64,000 bases of DNA from Branchiostoma lanceolatum (Eukaryota; Chordata; Leptocardii; Amphioxiformes; Branchiostomatidae), in contig NC_089732.1 in the NCBI RefSeq assembly GCF_035083965.1, forward strand, positions 15,321,424 through 15,385,423, given 5' to 3'. The notes below the pieces were generated by a model. It was not told the DNA's origin. It searched no databases and saw only the letters and a program-made list of their open reading frames with translations. Below are positions 4,560-64,000 of the stretch, one piece after another; position 1 is the stretch's first letter; every line of letters begins with the position of its first letter. Made by a program: the position numbers and the translations under genes.

Positions 4560-5205
4560 GACATCCATTAGTGAATTGCACTGATGCAATTCACTACTCT
4601 CTACCTGGAGTCATATAGTAATACATAATTACACATAACATTGGTACACATACACATAACATTACATAGTATATACGTATCTACACAATTTCAATTTTCT
4701 ACCAGTTCAGAATGTTTGAGTCCGTTTTTAGTCTGTCTTTGATGAGTAGTTTGAAGGAGGATGGAGCAGATGGTCTGATGTGTTGTGGAAGAGTGTTGTA
4801 GGATTTTGCGCACCGGTACAGGAAGGACTTTGTTGTAGATGTTGTTTTTGGTTCGGATAGTTTGAAGTCATTGCGTTTTGCGGATCTTGTGCTGTACGTG
4901 TGTTGATGAGATACGAGATGTAGTTTGTTGTAAAGAGTGGAAGGTTGGTTGAAAAAGAGAATTTTGTGGAAAGTGCACATGTTGCTGATGTAAAGTCTCT
5001 CCGAAACAGTCTGCCACGATAACACACAATTCATTTCCCGGATCGATATGCGGTTAGATTCCGGAATGAGTTTTCCCGCCTTATTTTGCATAACTTGAAG
5101 TGAATTGATTTTTTTCTGTGAAGTAGAATTACACACCGCTGTGCAGGAAACAAGTTCAAAAGTTGTGTTAGCAAAGGGCAATTTTAGTCTAGGATACAAA
5201 ATGGC
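4560..5205 (-). mobile_element. 3' part of a non-LTR retrotransposon (LINE)
   Basis: Holds the end of a reverse-transcriptase ORF (4699-5199) and its 3' UTR towards lower coordinates. It is truncated at the 5' end, which is usual for LINE copies. It abuts the stray satellite half-monomer at 5211. Confidence 0.7.
4699..5199 (-). pseudogene. LINE reverse transcriptase, C-terminal fragment
   Basis: The 166-residue reading frame has the pattern found after the catalytic part of CR1/L2/jockey-type reverse transcriptases: LQVMQNKAGKLI, then LSWQTVSERLY, then a KSFLYRCAKSYNTLPQHIR block and a terminal FKLLIKDRLK. The catalytic YXDD region is absent, so this is a 5'-truncated, dead copy. Subfamily cannot be told by eye. 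The frame is open, so the insertion may be fairly young. Confidence 0.7.
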
Positions 5206-5210
5206 GCTTG

Positions 5211-5291
5211 CTCCGGTCTAAAATTCAATCTCTTTATCAGAATGTTCAAACTTTACATTCAAACGATAGGGCCCTTGGTGGGTATTTGAGG
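5211..5291 (+). repeat. Left half of a satellite monomer interrupted by the RAG1-like element
   Basis: From GCTCCGGTCTAAAATTC to TATTTGAGG this matches, almost base for base, the second half of the ~178 bp monomers at 11855-14480. The rest of the same monomer resumes at 11855 with GAGGAAATGAAACC, after 6.56 kb of inserted DNA. The two pieces joined give an ordinary monomer. Confidence 0.9.
5288..5291. other. Left target-site duplication GAGG
   Basis: The uninterrupted monomers read TATTTGAGGAAATG. Here the left flank ends TTGAGG and the right flank begins GAGGAAATG, so GAGG is present on both sides. One more base to the left does not match (T versus G). Confidence 0.8.
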
Positions 5292-5323
5292 CACGGATGG
5301 TCTGGGTATACCAGATTGCATTT

Positions 5324-5350
5324 CTTAGTGTGCGCCTGCGCAAGATTAGC
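5324..5350 (+). repeat. Left subterminal inverted repeat of the RAG1-like element
   Basis: The core GTGTGCGCCTGCGCAAGATT matches the reverse complement of 11806-11832, with 23 of 27 positions identical over the whole block. It begins 32 bp inside the left end. Between end and motif lies a near-palindrome TCTGGGTATACCAGA (5301-5315) that has no partner at the right end. Likely a transposase-binding site, by analogy. Confidence 0.8.
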
Positions 5351-6069
5351 CTCGCGAGATCTCCCCGCGTGATACTGCGAGATCTTGTTACCCAGCCCCT
5401 AGCAACAGCTGATTACTCCTTGTAACCATGGTCTTTGGGGAGGATGAAACCATTCATCAACCCTAAAGTAGCTGTCTTACAAAAATTTAAGCCCTGCCCT
5501 CTGGAAGGCCAGTGACCCCATGAGTCACCTTTGGGGATATCACTCCTAAAATCCCAGACACACTTGCCCATGTGTGCCGGCTGACCTCTGATTTTGCGTC
5601 TTTTCAACTGCTCTTTTCACCCTTTCTGTCACTTGAAACATGGTAATCTTTCTACTCTTTGTCTAAGGCATACTTTTATCTACCCTATGATATAATTACT
5701 TCTACCATTGTATTTTTTCCCTTTCTTCTATGTGTTGATGAAAATGTCAGTTCAGACACGTGGGTGTGCATGACTGACCTGTCCAGTATCTAGGTCACAG
5801 CCAATTTCTTGTTTGTTACCTCCTTATACTACGTCTAACTGCATTTAGAGACAAGTATTATGCATTAAGTAACCAAAAAAACACCAAGAGATGAACATTT
5901 CTTTGTCATAATACATATATTGAGACATATATTCTGGTCACAGTGTACATGAAGGGACTCCCCCCCCCACCCCCTTCACCCTATCCACAATAGAAACCTT
6001 CCTTGCACATTTCGGACCTAGTTTTACTATCATAGAAAGTATTGGCCTGTACTTTTTCAACCCTTCATC
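5351..6069 (+). promoter_or_regulatory. 5' leader and presumed promoter of the RAG1-like gene
   Basis: No coding exon was recognised between the left repeat and the ATG at 6070. The region must hold the promoter if the element is autonomous. I see no clear TATA box. A poly-C run lies at about 5961-5975. Confidence 0.4.
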
Positions 6070-9000
6070 ATGTCTGCCAACTTTGGTCTTGAACATGTAA
6101 AGAGTTTATCAAAACTCTGCCGATTCTGTGGCGAGTCTGTTTTGACCAAGACGGACAAAAAAAACCACTTAAAACCACGAGCTTGCATTGACTATGTGAA
6201 GAAAATTCAGGAGGTTTGGAATGTTAATGTTGAAAATGACAAGAGCTACAAACACCCCCCCTTTTTCTGCCATCGGTGCAAGTTAATATTGCACAAGCCA
6301 CCCTCTACGCAGGCACCAAAGCGTGAGTCTTGGTACCCGCACTGGTGGGGTGATGAGTGTGTCACCTGTAAAAAAGTTGCGTCACTTGCTCGAGGTGGTA
6401 GAACTGTGAAGAAAAGGTCCCCAGGTAGACCAAAGATGAAGACACCTAAGGCTACAGATGATAAGGTTGAACAAGAGCAGAGTACAGGTACTGCCAAATT
6501 GTCAGAGGAACTATTTCAGACATTGCTTGACAAGCTGGATGACTATCCATATGATGAGGCTAGGTTTGAACCCATCTGTAACCTTTCTGCTTACACATGT
6601 GGTATCTGCCAGTCATTTTTGTATCTTCCTATTGAGACCCCCTGTGCTCACATTTTCTGTTTTGAGTGTATACAAAAATCATTTGAGATAGGAAAAACAA
6701 ATACTATTGGCTGTGCTATCTGCAAAGCACAAGTAATGCAAACAGACCTGAAACCCGTCCATAGAACCTGGGGGAGTTGCTACACTCAGTTGACATTTAG
6801 CTGCAAAAACTGTTCATCTCAGTTAAGGTTGGAACAACTTAAGCACCACCTTGACTGCAACTCGAAAGCAGAAGTCACAGTGGGCCCCTCTTCCACTCCT
6901 GCATCACATACTTCCCTGCAGCCTGTCCGAGTCATTCTTGTAGTACCCCCAGTGGCATCTAATCCTCCTACTGTTACAACTAGTAGTGTAGTGACATCTT
7001 CGAACCCTACGCTAAGCAACACATCTACTTGTACATCATCTGCTCCTTCTACATCATCTACTCCTTCTACATCATCTGCTCCTTCTACATCTTCACCTTC
7101 TTCAAGCCAAATTGTGCCTGGGGCTGCCCCACCCTCCAGCACAGGTTATGGCAAAGTCACCATTGACATAAATGAAGAAGGTCCGCTAACAGCAGAGCAA
7201 GAAGATACTTTTACAGCATTATACCGTCGCAAGGCAGAGACGAGCACAGACAAGGGCAGTGTTCTAGTTAAAACTGGAGGACAGGTATGGAACCTATTTT
7301 GTATTCTACATGATACTACGAGAAAAAGAAAGGTGAACTTTTATGACACGTACATTACTTACTTTCTATTGGAATGATACTTGAACTGCATGTTACAAAG
7401 TTGGTCTAAATAGAATTACATATACTTTCACAAGTTAGCACTCAAATATAACAATCTAAAAATAATGTTTGGCTGCAATGTCTGACAACAAAAATGACTA
7501 CTATGGTTTCCATTCCATTGCGGCTTTCAGTCGGTGATATTTGTTCCTTTTTTAATTGTCTAGCCCCTGAAACTAGTACATGTACCAAAGCCCCGGAAAA
7601 CTGCTAGTGAGGCAGCACCATCCACCATAAGAAAACACGCCAAGTTCATGCAGGGTGTAAGGGACCAGGTCAGTCGTGGGGACCCTGCTGCACTGATGAA
7701 GGAAGAACTCAAGATCCATTCTCGGCATGAGCTGCAGAAGATGCTGCAGGAGCTGAAGCTGGACCAGGTCCGCATTCCAACTGGGCACCTGCTGGCAGCA
7801 AAGGTGGACATTGGGATGAATTGGAATCAGTGCAGGAAACTTCGAAGGTACATCAACAACACAAATCTTTGCCTGAACACAAACATTTTCTTTATCACTG
7901 TCTTAAAGGACATATATGTGATTAACTCAGTTTAAACACAGTGTTCTGTTGTGTTATGTTACAGGTGGCTTAAAGGATATGGCGTGAGTATGGAGAGTGA
8001 AAAAGCATCCAGGGCTGTTGCTACACAGCTTCTCTCCAAGATTCCCACAATTGCAGAAAAATTACCTTTTTCTGTGAAGGGGGCCAAAGACAGCACGGTG
8101 GAGCTTCTGCCTTGCGCCTATGTAATCTCTTTACAGGATGCTATCTTCGACAACCTGAAAAGAAACCAGACAGCAGGGTAAGAAACTGACTTTGGCCTTC
8201 AAAGTTCAAACATGTTTTCATGCCAACATTTGAATTACATTTTTGACAGTGAAACTTACAAGACATATTCACTCTTTACAGCACCCTAACCTGGCACGCG
8301 GGGAAAATCCCAGAAAAGGAAATCTGGGTCAAGGTTGGGGGAGATCATGGAGGAGGGTCGTTCAAAATGGCATTCCAGATTCTCAACAAGGAGCGGCCCA
8401 ACTCCAAGAGCAACACCACTGTCTTTTGCATCTTCAATGCAAAAGACAGTAGGGAGAACCTCAACCTTGCCACCAGCAGGTTTGCCACAGAGATCAAGGA
8501 TCTCCAGCAGTTAAAATGGACGTACGTTAACATCTGTTATACACATATGACTTAGGAGCATGCCAAAAAGATAACTTTCAGACACTTGTTATTTACACAA
8601 TGTGAGTATGGACGAAAAGATCTCCCTTTCTTTGGTATAAGCATGTTACCATCGCCCCATGATAATGTTGAATCAAATTTGTGTTGCAGGTGCCAAGACG
8701 GGAATGAATTCTCCCTCCGCCTCTTCCCAGCTGGGGACTATGCATACCTGTGCCTGTGGTATGGCTTATCTGGTGCTTGTGGTAAGGAAATTAAATAAGT
8801 TGAATAATGTTGAACAATAAATGACCTGTTTGACTTACACTACATGTAGGTTAAAACCATAGTATTTTTGTATTAACTAGTCTCTCTGACTGAGGTTGTG
8901 CTATCTTTCTACCACAGGAACTCATCCTTGTTTGTGGTGTGATATCACCCTAGATGAAATTAAAGACACCGACAATTGTAGATTAATAATCCCCCCAAGA

Positions 9001-10618
9001 AACCTGGAAAGCCTGGCTGAAAACCACAAGAAGTTCCTCCTTGAGGGCAAAGGAAACCTTAAGCTGGCCAAGAAGTACCACAATGCCATCGCGCCAGTTA
9101 TGTTTGAAGTGCCCATAGACCAGGTAAGTTTGTACACACACACAGAATTACATCTTTTTTTAAATTATCCTATTCCCTGGCATATCTCAAATAGTCTAAG
9201 CCTCCATGTCTGTGTTTACAGGTTGTGGTACCTGGTCTACATATCAGCCTGGGCATCTACCTCAAGCTGTTCAAGCTGATGGAGAGTGAGCTGCACGATA
9301 TTGATCTGAAGCTGCAGACATACCTCTCCACAGTCTTGGATGAAGGTGAGGTCACCAAGGAGGAACTGTTGGCAGACGAGCACCTTGGGAAGTTCAAGGC
9401 GTACGTGGCTGCCATCGATGAAGCTCGAGGCCTGGATGAGAAAGCTGACGCCCTTGAGGAGAAGCTGGAGCAGGAGGAGAATCAGCTGGGGTGGCAGGCA
9501 TTTACTGACCTTGTGGAGCCTAGCGCTGATACTGACATGGCAGACGCTGAGTTCGAGAAAGCCTGCAGTGCCATCAAAGACCTATGCGTGGAGAAAGATA
9601 AGCTGGTAAGCATGTGCACACTATAAATTAGTATAATAATAAGAAGTCAGATATACAAATTTTAGACTTATACTTGTATACTATCATTGCACTTAATTTT
9701 AATCTATTTCATTACTCATGCAGAGGAAAGGGGCAGCCGAGCTACGACAAAAAGCGTCAGTGAAGGTAGGGCAGGGTCCAATAACATCTGAGCTAGACCC
9801 TGCGCTTCAGGAGTTGCACGTGCAAAGACAAGCCTACCACAGCGGCTCGTTCATAGGCAACCATGTCAACACTATGCTTCAGGCAAGTACTTGATAACAA
9901 TTTTCAGTGTTTTGTTTCTACAACAAACCATCATTTACGAATTTCGAATCTATTCTGATGACAGTTCATTTACATACACAGGACGAATCCATCAAAAAGC
10001 TGACAGCAGTCATCACCTCCGTTGTGACAGACATAATGGAGAGGTATGATGACCTGCCTCTTACCCTGGTTCCAAAGGCAAGAGAAACAGCTCAAAAGTA
10101 CCGTCAACTTTTTGAGCTGTTTGCTTCTTGCCACAAGAAGTATTCCCATGCTGGACAAATGGATGACAGTGCAATTGATGAGCTAGGTAAGAGATTCCTT
10201 AATTCTCTTATTAAATTGGTGTGGTACTATTATTGTAATGGATGAAGTGATGTGTTGATATTATCTTTAATAATTAAGTCTTTCTATCTAACCTATTCCA
10301 GGCACAGCCATCACAGCATTTATGACGTACTACAGGGAGAAAGTACCAAATGGGTCGGTACCCATCAAGATGCACATGCTTGAGCATCATGTAGTACCTT
10401 GTGTTCGAAAATGGAGGTTCGGCTTGGGCTTCCTTGGTGAGCAGGGTTTGGAGCAGGTCCATGCCTTGTTCAACAACATTGGAAGGACAACATCCGGCAT
10501 AGCCGATCCAGTGGCCAAGCTTAACTCGACCCTGAAGAACCATCTCATCGGTGTGAGCCCCGACCATACTGGTGGTGTTCCCGACCCTGTGCCGAGAAAA
10601 AAGAGAAAAGAGAATTAG
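6070..10618 (+). CDS. RAG1-like transposase, 1,104 aa, ten exons, intact
   Basis: Exons: 6070-7284, 7564-7847, 7965-8177, 8282-8521, 8690-8781, 8918-9123, 9222-9605, 9724-9882, 9982-10186, 10302-10618. All phases agree and the sum is 3,315 nt with one stop. Introns are GT-AG except the eighth, which starts CAG|GCAAGT. N-terminal zinc pairs are C17/C20, C67/C70 and C97/C100. A C3HC4 RING is C177, C180, C192, H194, C197, C200, C215, C218, followed by C245/C248/H260/C263, as in the RAG1 N-terminus. A Ser/Thr-rich linker lies at about 300-345. Core: D592 (GGDHGGGSF), D667 (PAGDYAYL), C686/C689 (CLWC), a charged coil-like insert at about 790-840, H1024/H1029, E1046 and E1050 (GEQGLE), and the C-terminal basic motif PRKKRK. 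These match the RAG1 catalytic triad and zinc ligands in order and spacing. It probably cuts and pastes its own element; activity is inferred. Confidence 0.9.
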
Positions 10619-10786
10619 TCCTATCATGTTCAGCAATCATGACATAATATATACTATTAGAACTAGGAGTATCAATCACAACATTCAGATGTACAAACAT
10701 GTTCTGAAGTGATGATAAGTGGAATTTTGTATCTAGAGCATATTAGCCACTTGCCTGACTAGGGGGTGCTACAGCATGTTATTGTT

Positions 10787-10792
10787 AATAAA
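10787..10792 (+). terminator. AATAAA polyadenylation signal, RAG1-like gene
   Basis: First AATAAA after the stop at 10618, 169 bp downstream. A second AATAAA lies at 11086-11091. Either could end the transcript inside the element. Confidence 0.6.
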
Positions 10793-11085
10793 CTTTGTAG
10801 GATATTTGTAAACATTGTACGTTATCAACTTTTGTTCCTGAGAACAGTGTTACTGTTACAGTGTTAGATAATACCCTGTTGTTATCAAGTTACCATATTT
10901 AGTTACTTCTAAAGCTGATTGGCTCAAAGTCCTGTTGTACTGGGAATGTCCAGTCAAACGATAATACCCTTGACAATACCAAATTGAATGATTTTCTACT
11001 ATGCTTAAACCTTTACATACTTGTATATACTATAGATAGTAAAATTGTGAGGTGTGCTCTTTATTGTGTTATGATTGATGACTCA

Positions 11086-11091
11086 AATAAA
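11086..11091 (+). terminator. Second possible AATAAA polyadenylation signal
   Basis: Lies within the element, 468 bp after the stop codon. It is in AT-rich DNA, so it is weaker evidence than the first signal. Confidence 0.35.
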
Positions 11092-11805
11092 CTATGCTGT
11101 TAGAATTGTAAAAATTGTAAATTAAACATGGGATTTTCAAGAGAGAAGTAAGACCTTTGATTTTGGTTAGCATGATAATTTGTGGCATGGATGTAAGTGA
11201 AAGGGGGAGGGGGGCAGTAAATACTATATCGGTGTTGCGACACACCCTGAAACCATTTTACGTCTTCCATTCGACAATAACAGATGTTTAAACGTAAATT
11301 CACTGAAATATCCCCATATACGCCTACTTTACCCGGTTATATTCGATGATGATTGCGATGTAGAATATGCAAATTAGGTAACATGGCGGAAAAATCCTGA
11401 AAATTACCTTTTTTTCGTCGACCTCCAGCCCGTCAGAAAAAAATACACTGGTGCTAAATGGCTCCTTGGTGGACGTACGATCGATCCAGCTGAGTATTTC
11501 CGGTGGTTTTACCGATGAAGTAAGCGAGGAAACTGTGAAAATCCTTTCCTGAAGTTGTTGCATGCTGCTTCACCGACTCTGCACTTCAAATGAGTCAATT
11601 ATGGTTAAATTCCGTCAAAAACGCGAGAAATCAGATCAAAACAGAAGCCCACAAAGATGGCTGCCGGATCATTCCAGAAAGAAGGTACCTCGTGACCCGA
11701 AAGGCGGTCTTTGATTGGTTAAAACTGGTTTGGGCAGTTTTTCACCTGCAGTATGCCCACGCGACCGCATGGTGGCGCATGGAAACTCAGCCACATTACA
11801 TCATC
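11092..11805. other. Right arm of the RAG1-like element, no second gene seen
   Basis: I looked on both strands for a RAG2-like kelch protein, which in amphioxus ProtoRAG lies tail-to-tail with the RAG1-like gene. Only short unconvincing ORFs were found (for example 11324-11563 minus, 11590-11832 plus). Their residues match no family that I recognise. Confidence 0.6.
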
Positions 11806-11832
11806 GCAAATCTTGCGCATGCGTACACTTAG
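11806..11832 (-). repeat. Right subterminal inverted repeat of the RAG1-like element
   Basis: Reverse complement has the core GTGTACGCATGCGCAAGATT, the partner of 5324-5350. It ends 22 bp before the right end, against 32 bp on the left, so the two spacers differ by about one helical turn. Confidence 0.8.
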
Positions 11833-11854
11833 CTGCTACCGCGAGTTCGGCGTG

Positions 11855-11858
11855 GAGG
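11855..11858. other. Right target-site duplication GAGG
   Basis: Partner of 5288-5291. The satellite monomer resumes here with GAGGAAATGAAACC. Confidence 0.8.
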
Positions 11859-14480
11859 AAATGAAACCACTTTACTTTCTCATTCATGGTTACGAAGTAA
11901 TAGCTGACCAAAGTTACGACCCCCACCCCATACTTAAAGCATTATAGGGTAAAGGCTCCGGTCTAAAATTCAATCTCTTTATCAGCATGTTCAAACTTTA
12001 CATTCAAACGATAGGGCCCTTGGTGGGTATTTGAGGAAATGAAACCACTTTACCTTCTCATTCATGGTTACGAAGTAATAGCTGACCAAAGTTACGCCCC
12101 CCCCACCCCATACTTAAAGCATTATAGGGTAATGGCTCCGGTCTAGAATTCAATCCCTTTATCAGCATGTTCAAACTTTACATTCAAACGATAGGGCCCT
12201 TGGTGGGTATTTGAGGAAATGAAACCACTTTACCTTCTCATTCATGGTTACGAAGTAATAGCTGACCAAAGTAACGTCCCTCACCCCATACTTAAAGCAT
12301 TATAGGGTAATGGCTCCGGTCTAAAATTCAATCTCTTTATCAGAATGTTCAAACTTTACATTCAAACGATAGGGTCCTTGGTGGGTATTTGAGGAAATGA
12401 AACCACTTTACTTTCTCATTCATGGTTACGAAGTAATAGCTGACCAAAGTTACGCCCCCCACCCCATACTTAAAGCATTATAGGGTAATGGCTCCGGTCT
12501 AAAATTCAATCCCTTTATCAGCATGTTCAAACTTTACATTCAAACGATAGGGCCCTTGGTGGGTATTTGAGGAAATGAAACCACTTTACCTTCTCATTCA
12601 TGGTTACGAAGTAATAGCTGACCAAAGTAACGTCCCTCACCCCATACTTAAAGCATTATAGGGTAATGGCTCCGGTCTAAAATTCAATCTCTTTATCAGA
12701 ATGTTCAAACTTTACATTCAAACGATAGGGTCCTTGGTGGGTATTTGAGGAAATGAAACCACTTTACTTTCTCATTCATGGTTACGAAGTAATAGCTGAC
12801 CAAAGTTACGCCCCCCCCCCCACCCCATACTTAAAGCATTATAGGGTAATGGCTCCGGTCTAAAATTCAATCCCTTTATCAGCATGTTCAAACTTTACAT
12901 TCAAACGATAGGGCCCTTGGTGGGTATTTGAGGAAATGAAACCACTTTACCTTCTCATTCATGGTTACGAAGTAATAGCTGACCAAAGTAACGTCCCTCA
13001 CCCCATACTTAAAGCATTATAGGGTAATGGCTCCGGTCTAAAATTCAATCTCTTTATCAGAATGTTCAAACTTTACATTCAAACGATAGGGTCCTTGGTG
13101 GGTATTTGAGGAAATGAAACCACTTTACTTTCTCATTCATGGTTACGAAGTAATAGCTGACCAAAGTTACGCCACCCCCCCCACCTCATACTTAAAGCAT
13201 TATAGGGTAATGGCTCCGGTCTAAAATTCAATCTCTTTATCAGCATGTTCAAACTTTACATTCAAACGATAGGGCCCTTGGTGGGTATTTGAGGAAATGA
13301 AACCACTTTACTTTCTCATTCATGGTTACGAAGTAATAGCTGACCAAAGTTACGACCCCCACTCCATACTTAAAGCATTATAGGGTAAAGGCTCCGGTCT
13401 AAAATTCAATCTCTTTATCAGAATGTTCAAACTTTACATTCAAACGATAGTGACCTTTGTGGGTATTTGAGGAAATGAAACCACTTTACTTTCTCATTCA
13501 TGATTACGAAGTAATAGCTGACCAAAGTTACGCCCCCCAAACCCCATACTTAAAGCATTATAAGGTAATGGCTCCGGTCTAAAATTCAATCTCTTTATCA
13601 GAATGTTCAAACTTTACATTCAATCGATAGGGCCCTTGGTGGGTATTTGAGGAAATGAAACCACTATACTTTCTCATTCATGGTTACGAAGTAATAGCTG
13701 ACCAAAGTTACGCCCCCAAACCCCATACATAAAGCATTATAAGGTAATGGCCCCGGTCTAAAATTCAATCTCTTTATCAGAATGTTCAAACTTTACATTC
13801 AAACGATAGGGCCCTTGGTGGGTATTTGAGGAAATGAAACCACTTTACTCTCTCATTCATGGTTACGAAGTAATAGCTGACCCAAGTTACGAACTTACGA
13901 CCCCACCCCACCTCATACATAAAGCATTATAGGGTAATGGCTCCGGTCTTAAATTCAATCTCTTTATCAGAATGTTCAAACTTTACATTCAAACGATAGG
14001 GCCCTTGGTGGGTGATTGAGGAAATGAAACCACTTTACTTTCTCATTCATGGTTACGAAGTAATAGCTGACCAAAGTTCCTACCCCCACCCCATACTTAA
14101 AGCATTATAGGGTAATGGCTCCGGTCTAAAATTCAATCTCTTTATCAGAATGTTCAAACTTTACATTCAAACGATAGGGCCCTTGGTGGGTATTTGAGGA
14201 AATGAAACCACTTTACTTTCTCATTCATGGTTACGAAGTAATAGCTGACCAAAGTTACGCCCCCCACCCCATACTTAAAGCATTATAGGGTAATGGCTCC
14301 GGTCTAAAATTCAATCTCTTTATCAGAATGTTCAAACTTTACATTCAAACGATAGGGCCCTTGGTGGGTATTTGAGGAAATGAAACCACTTTACCTTCTC
14401 ATTCATGGTTACGAAGTAATAGCTGACCGAACTTACGACCCCCCCCCCCCCCCCCACCACCCCATACTTACAGCATTATA
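11855..14480 (+). repeat. Satellite array, ~178 bp monomer, about 14.7 copies
   Basis: Monomers run from GAGGAAATGAAACCACTTTA to GGGTATTTGAGG. GAGG starts fall at 11855, 12033, 12213, 12391, 12569, 12747, 12930, 13108 and onward, so the period is 178-183 bp. Length differences come mostly from a poly-C run in each unit. Between 12213 and about 13190 two variants alternate (AACGTCCCTCACC with AGAATG and GGGTCC, then TTACGCCCCC with AGCATG and GGGCCC). This gives a 356 bp higher-order unit repeated three times. No ORF spans the array and there are no unique spacers, so it is not a CRISPR. Confidence 0.95.
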
Positions 14481-25889: not shown

Positions 25890-38179
<12,290 letters not shown>

Positions 38180-39064: not shown

Positions 39065-41371
39065 TCACTTTTGGCTCACTTTCGATGCATAGCACTCCTC
39101 TATGTGTGTAAGTGTAGCCTCAGAAAATGTGAACATTCTTTGGGACTTTCCCGTCGCTTGTGGCTTTTCAACCACACACAGCACATCGGCGGGCTTGATC
39201 CACAGGTCGTCTTTCCTTCGTGGCCATTTAAACTTCTGTCCCGCTTGTTGCATGAATCGGACACAGTACTCTCCATCGTCTTCATCCTCAACAACTCCGA
39301 CGTACCAATTGGAATCGTAGACTGCTGCCACATAGTCATCGATACGGATAGTCGCAGATGCCTCTGCCGCGGTAGGACCTGTATTCGTAGAGATCTTGTG
39401 CTTTTCCCACTTGCAAGTTGTACTTGTTCGAAACCCATTTGTGTCAAAACATCGCTCACAGTAGCATGTCGTGGACCTCGACTCAATCTCACCCAATCTT
39501 CCAACCACAGCGTGGAAAGACATAGTGCCAGGTATCGCCTTTACTTGTCCATACTTCTCTGCAAGGTAAGCCTGACTTTCCTGACATTCGGCTTTGTGGA
39601 CAAACATATACTTAATGACACTTTTCTCCTGTTGCGATGCCCACTTGTAGAAATCATGCGCGTCTTGGATCGTCGTTTCTTGGTGGTTTACTGCTTGGTC
39701 GGCCATTCTCTTCGCAGTGCCCCCCACACCGTCGCATGGCCCTTTGCCGTGACCGGCTTCGAAATAGTTCCAACACGCAGGTACTCCAAAGAGAGATTCG
39801 TGGTCAGAAAGGATACTGAACATTGTCTTGTTTCGGTACTGGGAGCTAGGACTATCTGTCCAGTAATGAATGTAGCTTATAGCAGGATGTTTCTGCTTGA
39901 CTTCGGGCACAACCCTCTTTAATATAGCAAACACAGTTGCCGCATTGTGCCCCAATTCGTCAGAGACTACACAGATGGATTCATGTTGTAGTTCTCCGTT
40001 TTCACTTTTGTAATAAATAATGGTTGGGTGTAATGTGACCATATCACAGTTCCAGTACGCCGATTGGATCTCGTCATTACTCTTGACTTTGTAGTTTTCG
40101 GCAAAGTCCATCTGAATCACAATGTGATTTTGATCCAGGTTTTCTTTGAGAGTTTTTAACTGACTGTACTGCTCGTTTGCACGAGCAACGTGCTGTCGGA
40201 AATGTGGCACCTCTTCTTTGAACTTAGCACAGAACGCTGTTGTCTCCACTTCTGACGTCACAATTTTCATTTTCTTTTTTCCATCAACTTCCACTCTTTT
40301 CCATTCATCGTATTTAATGTTCCCATCTGGTGGCAGATTCGACAGAAGTGATTCAACCTTGTCTGCATCCGGAAAAGCCTGGAGGAAGTTATCTGGGTTT
40401 GTCGTCTTTACACAGTTGTGTTGCTTTAGTGTCTTTAGTTTTAACGCGAAGTTCTGGTGCCTTGTGCAGAGACAGGTGTTCCTAGATAGGAAACACGCTA
40501 GTTTCATATTTTGCGGTCTCATCTTGGCAAAATGACTTAGTGAGATTTTGATACCCGTTTCAGCTTCAAACTTATCTCTTAGAGTAGACAGATAATTTGA
40601 TAGTATTCTGACTTGCAACTTCTCCTTCCCAACTTTTTTGCAATCATTTTTCCCTGGCATCATCCTCGAGTTGTCATCTCTTTCCAGGAACTCTTGAACT
40701 TGTCGCCGTAGTCGTGCCCGCGCAAGGGAACGTCTGGTTTTCCTGTGTTTGGTGTTTCGAGCGTTTCTGGCAAACCCAAGTTCATTGGAAAGTGTATTCA
40801 TCAGCCTATATTTCTTCATCACCTTCCCAGCCACCATCCTTCTGATGACTCTTTTCCCCTCTGTCTTCTTTTTCTCGTACCGCTCTCTCAATCCGGATGT
40901 GAAAACATTTGAGAACAAGATTTTCTTCCGTAACGAGCTCGGTACTCTCCGTGGTGTTAGCCCTGCCTGGCGTATCTCAGCATCGGTTTTGCTGCGTGGT
41001 GTTAACCGCGTTGGTACTTTCATCTCTTTCATCTTCAGTCGCTCCAGCCGTTTCTCCAACTTCCGTTTTGCTTTTAACGTTTTGTCCAACTTATACTGCA
41101 TTTGTTTGATTTTACTGCTGGGGCCACTTTTCTTCTGAGCGAAGTCCATTTTGATCTTCAGTTTTGGCAGACGTTCACGTTTTGCTTTCTGTCTCCTCAT
41201 CTTCTCTCTTCCCTTTGCCCTTCTTTTCTCTAAATCTTCCTTACTTGCCAAAACCGCCGGTGTGTAATATTTCATTACCCGATCTACTTCTTTTTTCCTG
41301 TATGCGGCACCGTCCTTGGCTTTCTTCCTTTCTCTATACGCCTTTTGGATTTCTGCCCTTGTCTTCCCCAT
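39065..41371 (-). CDS. DDE transposase, 768 aa, single intact exon
   Basis: The N-terminus (MGKTRAEIQKAYRERKKAK) and residues to about 135 are very basic and coil-like, plausibly the DNA-binding part. The catalytic core has D422 in IQMDFAENY, D506 in YWTDSPSSQYRN and E538 in NYFEAGHGKGPCDGVGG, i.e. a D-83-D-31-E spacing. Conserved blocks SICVVSDELGH and GHGKGPCDG are familiar from many uncharacterised repeated proteins of cnidarians, fish and lancelets. I cannot name the superfamily from memory. A Tudor/SH3-like C-terminal segment (IRIDDYVAAVYDSNWYVGVV...DLWIKPADVLCVV) lies at about 690-750. No stop or frameshift interrupts the frame, so the copy may be young and active. The 283-residue plus-strand ORF is its shadow. 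Confidence 0.85.
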   Translation of the reverse strand: MGKTRAEIQKAYRERKKAKDGAAYRKKEVDRVMKYYTPAVLASKEDLEKRRAKGREKMRRQKAKRERLPKLKIKMDFAQKKSGPSSKIKQMQYKLDKTLKAKRKLEKRLERLKMKEMKVPTRLTPRSKTDAEIRQAGLTPRRVPSSLRKKILFSNVFTSGLRERYEKKKTEGKRVIRRMVAGKVMKKYRLMNTLSNELGFARNARNTKHRKTRRSLARARLRRQVQEFLERDDNSRMMPGKNDCKKVGKEKLQVRILSNYLSTLRDKFEAETGIKISLSHFAKMRPQNMKLACFLSRNTCLCTRHQNFALKLKTLKQHNCVKTTNPDNFLQAFPDADKVESLLSNLPPDGNIKYDEWKRVEVDGKKKMKIVTSEVETTAFCAKFKEEVPHFRQHVARANEQYSQLKTLKENLDQNHIVIQMDFAENYKVKSNDEIQSAYWNCDMVTLHPTIIYYKSENGELQHESICVVSDELGHNAATVFAILKRVVPEVKQKHPAISYIHYWTDSPSSQYRNKTMFSILSDHESLFGVPACWNYFEAGHGKGPCDGVGGTAKRMADQAVNHQETTIQDAHDFYKWASQQEKSVIKYMFVHKAECQESQAYLAEKYGQVKAIPGTMSFHAVVGRLGEIESRSTTCYCERCFDTNGFRTSTTCKWEKHKISTNTGPTAAEASATIRIDDYVAAVYDSNWYVGVVEDEDDGEYCVRFMQQAGQKFKWPRRKDDLWIKPADVLCVVEKPQATGKSQRMFTFSEATLTHIEECYASKVSQK

Positions 41372-41505
41372 GATCTACATAGAATGCAAAATTCACAATG
41401 CATGTCCATTAAACTATGCACAACAGCAATGGCGTATAGTTCAGGGTAGTGAGTTCAAGTTGTCATACCAGCTAGTGAGTTTATTACTCCATGGTATAAA
41501 TGTTT

Positions 41506-47600: not shown

Positions 47601-50600
47601 TTACAGTACAAATAGATATTAATTGAGTACAAATATTTTTGCTGTTGTTACAGTTTATAATACTGTGTGCCTTGGCATTCCCCTTAGGCTAATTTGTTGT
47701 AAATGTACATATCGGTAGCTGAACAGTTGACTTCTAGTATGTGTGTAGCGTCCTTCTTGGCTATGAAAATGTATCCTTTCAAAAGAATTCAAATGATTTC
47801 ATGTTTATGTACAACTGAATTGACATACCACGGCATCTTTTACTCTCCCTCCAGCAAAAAAAGTCTTAAAATGTCTCAGTAAAATTCTTTAAACGTCAAC
47901 TACATGTTTCACTACATTTTCCTTTGGAAAAAGTGGTAAAAGACAGAAGATGAGAGAGGGTCTGCGTGGGGGGTTCCCGGCAACACTTTACTCTGAATTC
48001 AGAAGAACCCTCTCCTCTACGTATCACGCTCAAAACATTTGCAAGGAAGGCAGTTATGCAATGTATTGTTGCCTTGATACAAATTACAGTGCAAATTACA
48101 TACAAATTACAAATTACTTGATACAAATTACGACAGCTTACCCTACGATTTACAGGAAATCAAAACAGGCTGCCTACTCCTTAAGGAAAAGAGCGTAATG
48201 CTGCATGAAGACACTTATGAGAATGAGAAGAGGTCGTCTCACCTGTTCTCTTCCGTTCTGTACCAGTGCGATGTTAGTGATGCTACCTACGCCTTACGGA
48301 AAAGAGCATGCAGACCCTGATGAGAAGGAGTAAAGTTTTCCTCACCTGTTCCCTCCCGTTCTGTACCAGTGCGATGTTAGTGAACTTCCCATCGTAAGAC
48401 TGTATGGTGAAGGTGAAGAAGTACACCCCGGCCACCCTCGTCACGAACGTCCCGTTCCCGGGGTGGAAGTCCGCACCCTCGTTCACGAAGATCTTGTCGA
48501 AGCCGATTCGCTGTGGCGGGATGCTACCGTACATCTTGGTTTGGCGAGCGGCGGAGAAGGCGGACTGGGGCTGCGCGGAGAACGCCCCAGGGGGAGGGGG
48601 GTAACCACCAGGGGGTCTGATGCCGAGCTGCCCTCCTAGCATCTCTTGCAGTTGGCCTGGATGGAAAAAATGTCACAGTTAGATTTCATACTGTAAATGC
48701 ATTTAAGTTCGGGTGGTTTTTAATTTCGCGAAAATGGGGTGTTCAAGTTTTAAGTGGCTTTAAGTTTACAGCAGCGCTACAGGCACACACTGCTACAGTC
48801 TGTATTGGAAGAAAATGTTTGCGGTGGTTTTAGGTTCCCAGTGAACCGGTTGCCGCGAAAACCGCAAACATAAAACCACCGCTAATATTTCTGCATTTAC
48901 AGTAAATAGGAGGCCAGAAGAAATTACTTTTTTTTCCTGTTCTTATTCAAATATATCCCTGTTGTCTAACCTTTGAGGGATGATCGATAAGTTCTCGGCC
49001 TCACCCATGCAGATTATAAGGTATAAGCCTTTTATGAATGTCTCCTTAATACATTATAATTATGCACCTTGTATAGAACTTATTGATCATCCCTCAGAGT
49101 ATTGTGTACAAATTTTGTGGCCAATGGCTAACTTCAACAGGGAGAAGGTTAATAGAAAAAGAGTGAGAGCATTGGTAGAAAGTTGTGGTTGGTGGGAAAA
49201 AAGTTCTGCCACAGAAGTATGCATCTATATCTCACAGGAGAAATAAACAAGGCCCAGACTGGGATTAAACTGGATTTTGTGGTCCAGAGGGAGAGCCAAA
49301 CTGACGGGTTGTTGATAGACAGATATCTTTTTCCCACCAGGAAAAAATTGGCAAGTGGACAAGAAGTTGAGTAGGAACTGCTCCACACACGATTATTTAG
49401 TTAGGCTAATTGTATTATGAAGCTAATAGTTTCCCATTTATTTCGCTTTACTGAATGAGGAGAGTTTTGTGGAAAAAAAAGTGCAATGTGCGTGCAATCA
49501 AGTCTTTAGACAAGAAAAATCTAAGAATACTGAAAACAACATCATCACTAAATACTAAAGTGCATTGTGTCAATGACAAGTCATCCAAGCCAAAGCAGCG
49601 CTGTCTCCAAGTGCCGTCCCTCCATCCTGCGACAGAAATTTGCTTGTTGGGACAGAGAAAAATTTCATCCCGTCCGAAAAATCTGAACTTTTAATATAAT
49701 GAATGAATGAACTTTATTGCTCAACAATCGCACATGGTACAATGTATGGCATCAAATGAACAATACTAAAGGCTAATCTATCCTACAATTCTAAGTACAA
49801 AAATATCATCGAAACCAGTATATGGGTTACAATAAAGTCATGTATGGGTAATCCTGTCTCGCTTTTGGAATGATTTATGGAGGAATTGACCTATGTATAG
49901 ATGGAAATAGGAGTCGGACATGACAACAGTACATGGAAAATATCGCTCTGTGTACTAGATAGGGTGAAGTTTGTCTTAGTAGTAATTGTCTGTAACATTG
50001 CATCTCTCTCTTTACTATAAGTTGGACAATTCATCGCAAAATGAAATTCATTTTCAATATTTTCCTTACATGTAGGACACAATGGCTGGTGTGTTATGAT
50101 GTCGGCCCTTTTCAATTTCTAAACATATCATACTTAAAATCTAACAAGGAAAATGGACAACATCGATTTTCAAACTCCATTCAGCATAATGATTGGGCAC
50201 CATTTCCAAGGAAGGAAGTTTGTCATTAGCAACATGCTGAACCAGTTGAGAACTCCTAAGAACTTTCCTGTATACATTGGGCCAGGAGTGGCTTTGATTT
50301 TGCCCTCTGCCTGGTTGGCAGGTTCAGGAGTTCACAGGAAGGGGTCCTGTGTTCCTGTCAACAGTGGTTAACATGGCTTTGTTGAAGCTGCCACGGGTAC
50401 AGCAAAGATTCAGGAAGTTTCAAAACTTTACATGGCTGAGGGGAAAGAAAGGCAGTGTAACCCTGTTGACAAGGCCAGTTGGTTGTATCACATCAAGATT
50501 GTTGGGAATTTTGTTGGGCATTGTGTGCAGCAAGACAGTGGATATACTGCATGCACAATCATTGTCAGATCATACCGGTATTCTGTATGTGTCTTCAGAC

Positions 50601-59600: not shown

Positions 59601-62600
59601 GCCAAAGGCTGGCCACATTTCTGTCTTATGTACTACGGAGAGACTAACAACACTCATTGCATTCGTCTAAAAACAGTTAAATCTAAAGGGCTATGTAATG
59701 AGATAAAGGATACTTAGACCTAATAGTAATACTTAAAATCAATGCAGAAAACGTTTATATCTGCACGTAAAAATCTTTAGGAACATACACAATTAAGGTG
59801 GATACTGCAGACAGTAGCATGTAGTCACAGAAAAACACTTAACCTACATGTACAAGTCTGAGGTTGGATTGACAGATAAGGATAAACTTTTGAACTAAAG
59901 TTGTTGCAACAATTTGAAGTGTTTAAATATCTTTTAGTTGGTAAAATATAATCAAACCATTTTAAAGTTCCCCCAACAATTTTCACGTTAGAATCAACAA
60001 AATATAGTTAAACTTTTTTAAGTAGCCTCAACAATTTAAAGTGTTTAAACACATTAAAGTTGACATGATAAAGTCATCATAGTCAACTCAATTAAGTGGA
60101 GATAGTGAATCATAACCATGGAAACCACTTGTCAATCACTGCAGTACAGACTCTATTTTCAAACCATCTGGTCATGCAGACAGTCCAATCCATATCTCTA
60201 TGATGTGTTTATAGGTGGTGATATCAAACCTCTAGGGATAGCCAGAAGGCAACAAGGCCGCATCTGGTTAGGGAACTGAGACTTCCACATTGTATACAGA
60301 CACATATCTGTACCCAGGGGCTGTTGATATGATATTTGATAGGAAACTATGAGTCCTAATCTAATCAGAGAAGCTGATAGTGATAAGCCACCACCTGACT
60401 TTTGGTATCAAAATGCAGCTGACTCTACTGTAATTCACTTTATCTTCATGGTAGCAAAATTAGCACGGTGTAAGGAAAATTATCATTTTAACTGAACTTA
60501 AACTTCACCGTGGCGGCAAGTGATTTACAGAATGGATGTGTGAAGAAATCATAAATGATAACAGGTTTTGTCACGGTGATGATAGGTTCATGGTACAGAG
60601 GTGACCGTGAAAACAGTGAACATAAAGAAACAGTAGTCTTGTTGTTGTTTCACTGTAGGTTTAGAAGGAAGGAAAATACTAGAGATTTTTATTTTCAAAG
60701 GAGCTAGAATTTGTAGCTGCATGTGAGATGTGTATATGACAAAGTACAGGCTTGAACAGACTTGAAGTTCAATACCAAGTGGTCACTTTTTCACATTAAA
60801 AGATAACTGTTATTTTTCAACTTTGTTAACGAAAGCGTCTATTTGTTGACTGTTTACAGTGGTTGTCTATGTCATTATGTACAGAAAGTAGTCATTTCCT
60901 TCCTTGTGCCGAGTGAACCATACTTGTTCAAACCTCTTTCGGCATGTCGGCAATCGCAGAAATTACATCCCTTTAGATCAAAGGAGGGGGGGACTCGGGT
61001 AATGTGTGCGATAAGCCGGCTGCTAGTGGAGTGGTGGAGATAGGAAACTCCCCTGTCAACAGTAGTTATAGCACAACTGTGATCAGTGTGTCCATACACC
61101 CACAGGTCGCACCGAAACATTCCTGCGGATTTCCCTGTTTGTACTACATGCGCGCGCAGAGGGGTAAGGTAGGGGGAACAAAGAGAGGGCTAAGCCGCAA
61201 CTCAGACTGTAGGAAAATAAGTACCGCTTTTGATGTACCCCTCGTCCTCCCTGGTGTACAAGCACTCTAGTCATGCTTTACAAGCTACTCCAGACAATTA
61301 GGCTCTTAACCCCTTTGGGAAGCCAATAGTTAGTCAGGAGGATAGCGGTGGAATGTTGGAATTCTGGACAGAAAAATGTGGAAGAGAAGTAGCAGGTTAA
61401 GTGCAGTGGTTATACTAGGTCAATGGCTAGTTTTCAACAAACAAAACCAAGAGATTTCTTACTTAAAGATAGAGGAATCTGAAGATGATCTTCAAGAAGC
61501 CCTCGTAGAAGGATTTTAAGAGTTATGGTTATATGTTGTCCTTCTGTTGTAAAGAAGACAAAGTTTCAAAAGCCAGTGAACGTAACTATGTGAGTGCAAA
61601 TGAGGAAAAGACAACGTTCTGTGCAAAGTTCTAAATGCTCGTGAAAACTATTAAAAAGTCCTTTAAAGCCCAAAAAAATTCATTCAACTCTCAATCAAGT
61701 TGAGAAATAGAATGGAAAAAGAGATTCTGAACCTGTCTCAGGATAGGCATATGGACTCATCAGCAAAAAAAAAAAAATGATATTATGGTACTTTCAGACA
61801 AAAGTTTCTTTGGTCCATCCAATGTTCTCAGGACATAGAAGAAGTCTTTGCATTTCAGGGAAGAACCAATATATCCTGAGAACAATGTGTGCTGCACAGA
61901 AACAGGTGAAACATGTGTATTTACAAGAGCGACCCCTTGTTTCTCCAGAGACCCTGGAAAATGTAAGTCCCCACTGGGAGATAACACTTTTCATGGCTAG
62001 CTCCAAAAGCAGATGATTGCTTCGAAACAGGGTCCAAGGCAGTACGGAATGAATGTGTATTCTTTCAAGGACCAAATTCTCAAGAAAACCCACTTTAACC
62101 CTTGTAATTGGTCCCAGTCCAAACAGGATACAAGATATACATCGTGTAGAGCAGGCGATAACCTTTTGCTGAAGAAGTTATCACGGAACAGGTCAGTTGT
62201 TCTGTGTGTCTTACCAAGTGCTAAAAGATGTTAGCTTTTCAAACAGGAAAAGCAGAAACGCAACTTTGAAGTTTTTGAAATAACAAGAGAAGATGATTAT
62301 CTGAGTGGGCTAATTGCACTACAGGTCTGAATGTGTTGTTTTTCTTTGCTAGCACAACAGAAAGGCGTTTTCTTCCTTAAGTGGAGGTGCATGTATGTTT
62401 TGTCGAGTATGTTTTGTTTGCTGGAGAGAGTGCAAACACTGAGCGTAGACATATCAGAGGGAGGCAGGAGTTTGTTAATTACCTGTGAGGAGTTGTGAAA
62501 CCTCGTTAAGCCTGGTCTGCAGGGTGGTGACAACCTCGTTAAGATGGTCGACTGTCTGGCGTGCGTCTCTCAGCTGCGTCAGCTCAAACTCGCTCATCAG

Positions 62601-63077
62601 CACGATCCCCTCCAACTCTCGGTTCTTTCCCTTCAGACGCTCCAGCTCTAGAGTCTGGTTCAGGAGCTGGAGTTCGAGGTTTTTCACTTTCACGTTGTGT
62701 TCGAGCGAACGGATCTCCATCCTCGCCGTGGCGTTCACGACGTCCTTGTGCATGTTCGCGCTCCATAGTTCTCGGTCTTCCCGGTACCGACTGAACTGGT
62801 GCCGGAGACGGTTTGTCTTGTCCGACGTCTTCTTGACGTCTCTCTTCATCTCGGTGAGGATCTGGGCTGACTGCGAACTCTGGCAGGACGAGTCTCTCTC
62901 GTTTTTCGGCACCACGAAGGTGTAACTGCAGGCGCCGGTCTGAGCCTGTGTGTTACAGACCTGCGTGCACTGTTGACCCCTCAATACATCCACTCTGTTC
63001 TGTGCCCCAGCACTGTTCTGTCCAACCAACAATAAAATATTGCTGAAAAGCACCGCAACCTTGCACACAGCCAGCAT
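44603..63077 (-). CDS. Secreted coiled-coil/C1q-domain protein, 362 aa, three exons
   Basis: Exons, 5' to 3' on minus: 63077-62483, 48656-48346, 44785-44603. Phases agree (1, then 0), total 1,089 nt. Residues 1-25 are a signal peptide (MLAVCKVAVLFSNILLLVGQ). C37, C41, C50 and C65 frame CSYTFVVP, which with the coiled coil (about 70-198, LELQLLNQTLELERL) recalls the N-terminus of angiopoietins. A short Gly/Pro linker (IRPPGGYPPPPG) leads to a C1q domain (about 230-362) with FDKIFVNEG, GVYFFTFTIQSY, ALVQNGREQ, VWLQMDGG and the end TFSGYLVYAKFS. Such proteins form secreted trimers that bind surfaces or receptors; C1q-domain genes are many in lancelets. No collagen repeat and no fibrinogen domain were seen. 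I chose the second ATG (63077) because it starts the signal peptide directly; 63107 is also possible. Confidence 0.85.
44880..45250. repeat. Repeat family copy ending in CA-rich microsatellite and ATCTCCAT hairpin
   Basis: Contains CCCTGCAGTTTCAGAGC, ACCATAGCATGTCCAGGTCA, GTACCAAGGTCACATACCAG, then ACACACACACAGACACAC and the small palindrome TATCTCCATTTTTAATGGAGATA shortened here to its arms TATCTCCATT/AATGGAGATA. Closest to 57560-58345. Confidence 0.75.
45554..45765. mobile_element. TA-flanked MITE, CTGTAAATGC family, copy 1
   Basis: TA-CCGTAAATGCAGAAATG at the left and GAATATTTCTGCATTTACAG-TA at the right. The interior has GGAGAAAATGGAGTGTTCGC and GTGGTTTT. In the second C1q intron. Confidence 0.8.
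45970..46174. mobile_element. TA-flanked MITE, CTGTAAATGC family, copy 2
   Basis: TA-CCGTAATTCTTAAAG ... GGCATTTACAG-TA, with the reversed interior word AACACTCCATTTTCTCC. Confidence 0.75.
46502..46665. mobile_element. Truncated MITE of the TATTTTCTCGA.TAAAGTAC family
   Basis: The left end TACAGTATTTTCTCGATTAA and the inner GTGTACTTTATTTGAGGT match 53616-53980; the right end was not found. Confidence 0.55.
48220..48345 (-). repeat. Partial tandem duplication of the C1q exon 2 end with splice donor
   Basis: 48240-48285 repeats the exon end on the minus strand: ACTAACATCGCACTGGTACA, then the codons for NGREQ and a GTGAG donor, with only synonymous-looking changes (GGAAGAGAACAG versus GGGAGGGAACAG). 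The intronic part (GAAAAGAGC...TGAGAA) is repeated too. Period about 107 bp. Confidence 0.75.
48689..48904. mobile_element. TA-flanked MITE, CTGTAAATGC family, copy 3
   Basis: TA-CTGTAAATGCATTTAAG ... TATTTCTGCATTTACAG-TA. Lies ~30 bp upstream of C1q exon 2 in transcript sense, inside the 13.8 kb intron. Confidence 0.85.
48971..49099. mobile_element. Mariner-like MITE, 129 bp
   Basis: 25 bp inverted ends with two mismatches: CTTTGAGGGATGATCGATAA at left, and the partner at 49075-49099 (reverse complement CTCTGAGGGATGATCAATAA). TA lies near both ends. Termini with GAGGGATGATC and AAGTTCT resemble mariner ends. No ORF of note. Confidence 0.75.
49697..50115 (-). mobile_element. LINE 3' end with reverse-transcriptase zinc tail
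   Basis: The minus strand encodes CPTCKENIENEFHFAMNCP (ORF 49891-50115), the C-terminal zinc knuckle of LINE ORFs. The 3' end closes AATAAAGTTCATTCATTCAT. It is 5' truncated and lies in the C1q intron. Confidence 0.75.
50700..50875 (-). mobile_element. Possible tRNA-like SINE fragment
   Basis: Minus strand has CCTGATTCAATCCTGGG (box B-like) preceded by an AGTTGAGCACCTGG word (box A-like). Divergent. Confidence 0.35.
51147..51307. mobile_element. PIF/Harbinger-like MITE, copy 2
   Basis: GGCCACACCAATTTAATTTC and its inverse, 161 bp, flanked by TAA on both sides (51144-51146, 51308-51310). Almost the whole element can fold into one hairpin. Confidence 0.85.
51710..51750. repeat. (TTCA)n microsatellite
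   Basis: Tandem ATTCATTCATTCATTCAATC. May be a worn LINE tail. Confidence 0.6.
52032..52158. repeat. Hairpin repeat with ~45 bp arms
   Basis: 52032-52076 (TGTTTTTGACGTCTTTTTAG...) pairs with 52114-52158 (CTAAAAAGACCTCAAAAACA at its end) around a 37 bp loop. Probably a fold-back MITE. A small-RNA hairpin cannot be excluded. Confidence 0.7.
52815..52980. mobile_element. MITE, CTGTAAATGC family, worn copy
   Basis: Interior GGAAAATGGAGTGTTCGC and right end ACATTTCTGCATTTACAG-TA; the left end is damaged. Confidence 0.65.
53616..53980. mobile_element. TA-flanked MITE, TATTTTCTCGAATAAAGTAC family
   Basis: Left TA-CTGTATTTTCTCGAATAA; right end reversed reads TA-CCATATTTTCTCAATTAAGG. Three ACTTTATTTGAGGTT words lie inside. 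Confidence 0.75.
54700..54830. repeat. Interspersed repeat, sister of 27725-27860
   Basis: Shares ATGCAAGC, GAAGCCGCATTGC, TATCCTCAGTCTAAGGTTG and CTACCATTTACTG with the 27.7 kb copy. Confidence 0.45.
55390..55640. repeat. Repeat family copy, reversed, with (TG)n(TCTG)n
   Basis: Reverse complement of the family at 57560-58345: GGGCCCCCTAGCAGCTT, AGTACTGCAACAGAACC and GGACATGCTATAGTCTTGAT. It begins with a TG/TCTG microsatellite at 55399-55434. Confidence 0.75.
56487..56662. mobile_element. TA-flanked MITE, CTGTAAATGC family, diverged copy
   Basis: TA-CTGTAATTCTTAGAATT ... GCATTTTACTG-TA with interior words like the 45970-46174 copy. Confidence 0.6.
57560..58345. repeat. Repeat family copy, most complete example
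   Basis: Starts AGAGTTCCGCGACCTCATAT, has ATTAATTATGCAAATGAGG words, then CCCTGCAGTTCCAGAGC, ACCAGGGGGCCCAAAAT, a CA microsatellite, and closes with TATCTCCATT...CATGGAGATAAC. Inner TATCTCCATGAA words occur at both ends in opposite sense. No ORF. Confidence 0.75.
58794..59024. mobile_element. PIF/Harbinger-like MITE, copy 3
   Basis: GGCCACACCAATTTAATTTC with its inverse, flanked by TTA both sides. The interior (GCACAAGGACATCATTAAAA, CACTCCCTGAAACTGTGTGC) is nearly identical to copy 1 at 34917-35143. Confidence 0.85.
59103..59315. mobile_element. MITE, CTGTAAATGC family, worn copy
   Basis: TGTAAATGCATTTAAGTTCG, GGGAGAAAATGGAGTGTGCA, and ACCACCACAAATATTTCTGT at the right. Confidence 0.7.
60426..60635. 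mobile_element. TA-flanked MITE, TACTGTAATTCACTTTAT type
   Basis: TA-CTGTAATTCACTTTATC ... AACATAAAGAAACAG-TA, reverse copy of 31190-31381. Confidence 0.75.
60640..62470. other. First-intron DNA of the C1q gene without recognised feature
   Basis: Several 63-99 residue ORFs, none with a known pattern or sensible splice context. A poly-A run lies at about 61767-61779. Confidence 0.4.
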
Positions 63078-64000
63078 GGTGTCCGGTCCAAGCAATGCCA
63101 CTGCCACAGAGAAATAACCTCAAGATTTAGCGGTTCAATCTCTTCTTCTGAGAGGTTGTGAGTGGCCACCCGATGAGAGGTTATAGACCTAGTGTTGGCC
63201 TGCCCTGGTTGCCTGTGGAAGACCCTCTGTGTTGTTGTCCAGCCCCTTGTCCTGCCAGAACTAATTCCCTGGCACCATGTGGGGAGCTTGTCCTGGAATT
63301 GTGAACAAACAATTAGTAGTGGTTGAGTAGGCAGCAGGTTAGTCACTCTCAGCCTGCCAGTGTGGGCCTTGTTGACTCACTGTTTGATACAGGCTGGGAG
63401 AAATCAATTGTCTGGTTCTCATACCAGGAAAAAAAAATTCTGTGATGCTAGAGTGACTCATCTCGGATTGATTTTACTATTCTGAATTTTTCTTTATCAT
63501 ATGTTTCATTAAAGAGTTGGCCAATAAGAACTCACCCAATACACATTATTATGATAATTACATATCGTTCTGGAGTTGGTTTTTGTAGGAGATGAGAAAA
63601 ATCCCAACTAAAGGAGCAATAAAAAGCATAAAATAGCTAGGCTTGAATATGGTAGAGCCAATTTTCCAAGATGTTTATACAGGTAGGTTATCTTCTTATT
63701 GTGATATTTACTTAGCAGATATGTATTGACCAATTAAACTAAAAAAATAAATTATCAATAAACTTAAATGATAAGAACTAAATGAGCTCTCATTTATGGA
63801 GGTTTTTTTCAACGCAAATAAAGTCTGGCTGGTTTTCTGACGTCCCCTTTCTATTGCTGTACTCTGCTTCTGAGTCAGTCACTCAGTGTCCCTCTAATGT
63901 ATAATGCCGGTGGACGTAGATTGCTACTTCCCTCACATCCTCTTGTTTGTTATTGATCTCAATCAGTTCCTTCCTCCTCTCTTCTGCTTACGTATGCATG
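63078..64000 (-). promoter_or_regulatory. Upstream region of the C1q gene
   Basis: Must contain the 5' UTR and promoter, possibly with an upstream non-coding exon. I see no clear TATA box or second gene. The 121-residue minus ORF 62981-63346 overlaps the first exon in another frame and is a shadow. Confidence 0.4.

Follow-up and report, generated by a model that had tools for sequence, protein, structure and literature searches.

The window, that is, the whole stretch of 64,000 nucleotides of Branchiostoma lanceolatum DNA analysed here (contig NC_089732.1), very probably harbors a full-length and apparently autonomous Chapaev element, a cut-and-paste DNA transposon of the CMC clade. According to the passages of PMC4079192 that deal with this group, the hallmarks of Chapaev are a target site duplication of 3-4 bp, 5′-CAC/GTG-3′ termini and, in the transposase, the C(2)C, LH and H(4)H motifs. 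All of these are present here: the duplication is GAGG (4 bp), the ends are CAC...GTG, and the encoded protein carries C686-x2-C689, LH at 756 and H1024-x4-H1029. In addition, the core of this protein is recognised by the Pfam family PF06918 (DUF1280), which corresponds to Chapaev transposases in the relevant part of PMC3985635. The protein, taken to be a DDE transposase encoded by the only gene of the element, resembles RAG1 in its N-terminal part, which includes a RING finger. The copy is an example of an already described type of Chapaev and not a new RAG1 gene. The coordinates of its features are collected in Table 1.

Table 1. Features of the Chapaev element and of the satellite DNA around it; coordinates are those of the window.
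Feature	Coordinates	Strand	Remarks
Left fragment of the interrupted satellite unit	5210..5291	+	82 nt; 96.3% and 98.8% identical to two units
Left target site duplication GAGG	5288..5291	.	identical to 11855-11858
Whole Chapaev element, 6,563 bp	5292..11854	+	CAC...GTG ends; boundaries fixed by satellite stop and restart
Left subterminal inverted-repeat block, 27 nt	5324..5350	+	32 nt from end
Transposase exon 1	6070..7284	+	aa 1-405; contains RAG1-type N-terminal region and RING
RAG1 importin-binding region (PF12560, RAG1_imp_bd)	6094..6498	+	aa 9-143; E 5e-7, 30.0 bits vs cut-off 23.3
C3HC4 RING finger (PF00097)	6598..6723	+	aa 177-218; E 1.3e-5, 25.4 bits vs cut-off 21
Transposase exon 2	7564..7847	+	
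Transposase exon 3	7965..8177	+	
DUF1280 (PF06918, Chapaev transposase) match	8104..8504	+	aa 547-645, exons 3 and 4; contains D592
Transposase exon 4	8282..8521	+	
Transposase exon 5	8690..8781	+	contains D667 (putative catalytic residue)
Transposase exon 6	8918..9123	+	C686-x2-C689 motif at 8929-8940
Transposase exon 7	9222..9605	+	LH at aa 756-757
Transposase exon 8	9724..9882	+	GC donor
Transposase exon 9	9982..10186	+	
Transposase exon 10	10302..10618	+	H1024-x4-H1029, candidate catalytic Glu E1046/E1050, stop TAG
Right subterminal inverted-repeat block, 27 nt	11806..11832	-	22 nt from end
Right target site duplication GAGG	11855..11858	.	identical to 5288-5291
178-bp satellite array	11855..14449	+	14.4 copies; 361-bp higher-order double unit, 7.2 copies

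An insertion in satellite DNA

The boundaries of the element can be read from the satellite DNA in which it lies. Specifically, the satellite halts at 5291 after TATTTGAGG, with 50 nt in perfect agreement with one satellite copy and 0 nt beyond, and it resumes at 11855 with GAGGAAATG, with 0 matching nt before; Tandem Repeats Finder likewise puts the start of the array at 11855. When the two flanks are joined and one GAGG is kept, the restored site aligns to intact satellite over 204 nt, with no gap and 8 mismatches, and the uninterrupted junction TATTTGAGGAAATG occurs in 13 copies in the window, at 12028-14369. Among the duplication lengths from 2 to 8 nt that were tested, 4 (GAGG) is the only one that matches. 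The element itself begins with CACG and finishes with CGTG, these ends being defined from one insertion, a single copy. An insertion accompanied by a 4-bp duplication represents direct evidence of a transposon. The preliminary description of this DNA had reported the gene and had missed the larger element, with its target duplication, inside which the gene sits. Further copies of the gene or of the flanks in the window were found neither by tblastn at E 1 nor by blastn at 1e-3, and Rfam, searched at gathering thresholds, gave 0 matches in the window.

Other sequences of the window were noted along the way. Two stretches of the minus strand (4699-5217 and 28222-28818), with no Pfam match, look by eye like the C-terminal tails of non-LTR reverse transcriptases, and a 769-codon frame with a basic N-terminus at 39068-41374 (minus strand), for which Pfam gives nothing up to E 1, resembles by eye the transposase of another DNA transposon. 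A frame with a C1q domain (PF00386, E 6.7e-15) at 48286-48672 on the minus strand belongs to a gene of the host or of host-like kind and is in keeping with an animal. A frame at 62478-63119, also on the minus strand, suggests by eye a secreted coiled-coil protein; its matches are weak, the best of them (ANG-1-like, E 0.0011) staying under the curated cut-off. Finally, one 62-bp unit is found in tandem both at 31512-31640 and at 32288-32450, about 650 bp apart.

Gene structure and protein domains

The ten exons, whose ends are predicted from the DNA sequence within 6070-10618, join in frame into 3,315 nt, that is, 1,104 codons followed by one terminal stop. Splicing of these predicted exons thereby bears out the preliminary description, which had proposed a ten-exon, in-frame gene of 1,104 aa without internal stops. 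GT-AG borders characterize eight of the nine introns, and the remaining one, after exon 8, is of the GC-AG type (donor at 9883). The coding frame of the spliced sequence contains the terminal stop only, against 26 to 74 stops in the remaining five frames and at least 40 in each of 300 base shuffles (mean 57); the open frame is therefore not a product of chance. The GC content at codon position 3 is 0.51, compared with 0.32 in the introns.

Searched as a whole up to E 10, the protein matches 10 Pfam families, namely DUF1280, RAG1_imp_bd and eight overlapping RING models, among which zf-C3HC4 is the best. Curated cut-offs are reached by three of the ten (DUF1280, RAG1_imp_bd and zf-C3HC4). In a PDB search with the whole protein, the best RAG1 chains, 6oem and 9jpu, match residues 34-270 at E 3.8e-10, and many RING ligases match as well; in all of the best 60 of 99 PDB matches, the strongest stretch falls within residues 34-280. 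The RAG1 match at the N-terminus covers in succession the importin-binding region, the RING and the zinc finger that follows it. A single-sequence structure prediction of residues 1-290 had a mean pLDDT of 34.8.

The core tells a different story as far as the family is concerned. DUF1280 matches the whole protein at E 7.4e-11, with 42.5 bits against a cut-off of 25, and the core alone (residues 406-1104) at E 3.8e-11 (aa 546-645), where it is the sole family listed up to E 10; the match spans model positions 121-217 of 220 only. The RAG1 core family PF12940 is absent among the Pfam matches up to E 10 of both the whole protein and the core alone, a negative result to be read with the fact that the HMMER filters discard most matches above about E 0.1. 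Against the PDB, again up to E 10, the core returns a single match, to a formin, whose E value of 2.5 is at chance level. Since these searches gave RAG1 matches at the N-terminus and none in the core, the likeness to RAG1 that is visible in the sequence is confined to the N-terminus.

The core residues D592, D667, C686, C689, H1024, H1029, E1046 and E1050, of which the D and E residues are the putative catalytic ones, were all located in the spliced translation at the positions that the preliminary description had assigned to them. C686-x2-C689 is the only C-x2-C of the core and follows D667 at +19. The other two motifs are weak if taken alone: the protein has four LH, of which three lie in the core, and two H-x4-H, one being H1024-x4-H1029. 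The ordered pattern D-x18-C2C...LH...H4H...E appeared in 3 of 20,000 core shuffles, and in 15 of 20,000 when LH was left out, the pattern having been picked after the protein was seen and the spacing of 18 having been taken from RAG1 numbering. D708 and C727 of RAG1 are presumably spaced as D667 and C686 are here, and the order D, D, C2C, H4H, E is one that we take to be the same in vertebrate RAG1. Likewise, the context of RAG1 E962 favors E1050 over E1046 as the third residue. Relatives of the core were also sought outside animals, with 1 pattern match in viral contigs and 12 in bacterial and archaeal genome contigs, 0 being confirmed in either set, as is expected for an animal transposon.

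These results allow the label of RAG1-like gene, under which the locus had been described, to be qualified. The C3HC4 RING had been correctly recognised, as Pfam places zf-C3HC4 at 177-218, and the attribution of the core to the wider RAG1/Transib/Chapaev clan is upheld by the profile search, which gives DUF1280 (Chapaev). What holds of the label is a RAG1-type N-terminus with a RING; what does not is the core, which is DUF1280 and has no RAG1-core match in Pfam or the PDB. With a DUF1280 core and a RAG1 likeness that is N-terminal, the clan had been right and the family wrong.

Relatives and rival readings

Kapitonov and Jurka reportedly described, in 2007, Chapaev elements that have both a Chapa and a RING domain. 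In the passages of Kapitonov and Koonin 2015 (PMC4411706) devoted to these elements, the Chapa domain is common to the RAG1 N-terminus and to Chapaev of the lancelet and of the starlet sea anemone, and two subgroups of Chapaev have a RING after it, just as RAG1 does. The conclusion drawn there is that the fusion of Chapa, RING and core goes back to a common ancestor. We infer that the PF12560 match found here is this Chapa domain. The present copy closely fits the description of Chapa-RING Chapaevs in that part of PMC4411706, sharing with them the RAG1-type N-terminus, the RING, the DUF1280 core, the CAC...GTG ends and the 4-bp duplication. As the N-terminal region and the RING are, on that account, common to Chapaev, their presence is not diagnostic of RAG1 or RAGL. 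The term RING finger refers to retrotransposons in the passages covered of PMC3630058.

Vertebrate RAG1 resembles this transposase in the importin-binding region, the RING and the following finger, but the core found here is not recognised as RAG1, the gene lies within a transposon with a 4-bp duplication and the element is without a RAG2-sized open frame. ProtoRAG, RAGL and TransibSU elements are similar in their CAC termini, in an N-terminal zinc-finger region and in belonging, by their DDE core, to the same wide clade, but differ from the present element in the duplication, which is of 4 bp here, and in the RAG2L-sized frame that is missing here. In the sections of PMC7204232 on these features, RAGL duplications are of 5 bp, almost always in deuterostomes and invariably in the protostome set, and RAGL elements have convergent RAG1L and RAG2L genes. 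N-RAG-TP of Aplysia, as portrayed in part of PMC8355894, also carries a RAG1-N-terminal-like sequence in a mobile element; there, however, the N-terminal-like part makes up all of it, whereas a full transposase core is present here.

These comparisons bear on the reading of the gene as the RAG1-like gene of a transposon of RAGL/ProtoRAG type minus its RAG2-like partner. The importin-binding match (E 5e-7), the full-length RAG1 chain 6oem matching residues 34-270 (E 3.8e-10), the CAC termini and the C2C/H(3-4)H motifs, the latter two common to the wider clade, would all agree with it. Nevertheless, PF12940 is not among the Pfam matches up to E 10, the lone PDB match of the core is a formin and the duplication is of 4 bp instead of 5. 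Moreover, the longest open frame in the element beyond the exon frames of the gene itself is of 120 aa, a RAG2 with smaller exons being possible, and all 22 open frames of at least 50 aa that extend into the non-coding flanks, when scanned against Pfam, gave a best E of 0.029 and 0 matches at the curated cut-off. Membership of RAG1 or ProtoRAG was rejected on the core, the duplication length and the lack of a RAG2-sized frame, and we hold this reading to be extremely improbable. Another candidate is Chapaev3 or another CMC element (EnSpm/CACTA, Mirage), as these groups have the C(2)C and H(3-4)H motifs in common, and EnSpm also has CAC...GTG ends, in the literature passages that describe them. 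Chapaev3, however, makes 3-bp TWA duplications according to PMC4079192, in its part on that group, and GAGG in place of TWA speaks against this identity and marks the element as Chapaev in the narrower sense. In addition, Pfam recognises DUF1280 here and neither DUF1258 nor Transposase_21, the families linked to Mirage and CACTA in the corresponding part of PMC3985635. Chapaev3 was rejected, and an assignment to it or to these other groups is highly improbable.

Selection as a host gene, which the preliminary description had raised, did not find support. That the locus is a host gene domesticated from a Chapaev transposase, and kept intact through selection, agrees with the integrity of the ten-exon frame of 1,104 codons; against it, complete CAC...GTG ends and the exact duplication of 4 bp (GAGG) within a satellite array give the locus the look of an undecayed insertion. 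Domestication was accordingly set aside as the main reading and appears very unlikely, and the locus is best regarded as a Chapaev transposon.

Proposed transposition and possible asymmetry of the ends

A possible course of transposition for this Chapaev element can be outlined. The transposase would bind the element ends through the subterminal block and would pair both ends; cleavage at CAC/GTG would then be carried out by an RNase H-like D592-D667-E site, in which E is most likely E1050, and the cut ends would be joined to the target at positions 4 bp apart. The Cys/His pairs would bind zinc, and the RING, by analogy with RAG1, may serve as an E3 ligase or as a dimerisation module.

The terminal repeats are poor except for CACG and the 27-nt block, whose two copies are 85% complementary to each other. 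The end alignment scores 38, whereas the highest score among 1000 base shuffles is 36, a narrow margin obtained on a single copy. The distance between block and element end is 32 nt on the left and 22 nt on the right; the alignment accounts for this offset, close to one helical turn, by a 9-nt gap plus smaller gaps. A functional asymmetry of the ends, that is, a CAC cleavage point and a shared 27-nt recognition block set at unequal spacing, is very unlikely to lie behind these data, and the spacing can equally be explained by about 10 bp inserted in one of the ends. If it were true, the 32/22 asymmetry would be the Chapaev counterpart of the 12/23 spacing in RAG signal sequences, and this in a transposase that also has the N-terminus and RING of RAG1. 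Should the 32/22 spacing be conserved in other copies, an asymmetry of paired ends would be older than the RAG lineage or would have arisen in parallel with it.

The architecture of this transposase is relevant to how RAG1 arose, as the preliminary description had stated; the idea itself had already been published in 2015, in the passages of PMC4411706 on Chapaev, and the present copy adds a test object to that concept, not a new concept. In particular, an intact-looking Chapaev that combines a RAG1-type N-terminus and a RING, and of which both ends and the empty site are readable, represents a usable test object for the question of whether the N-terminus and RING acted in a transposase before RAG1, be it in targeting, in ubiquitin ligation or in dimerisation.
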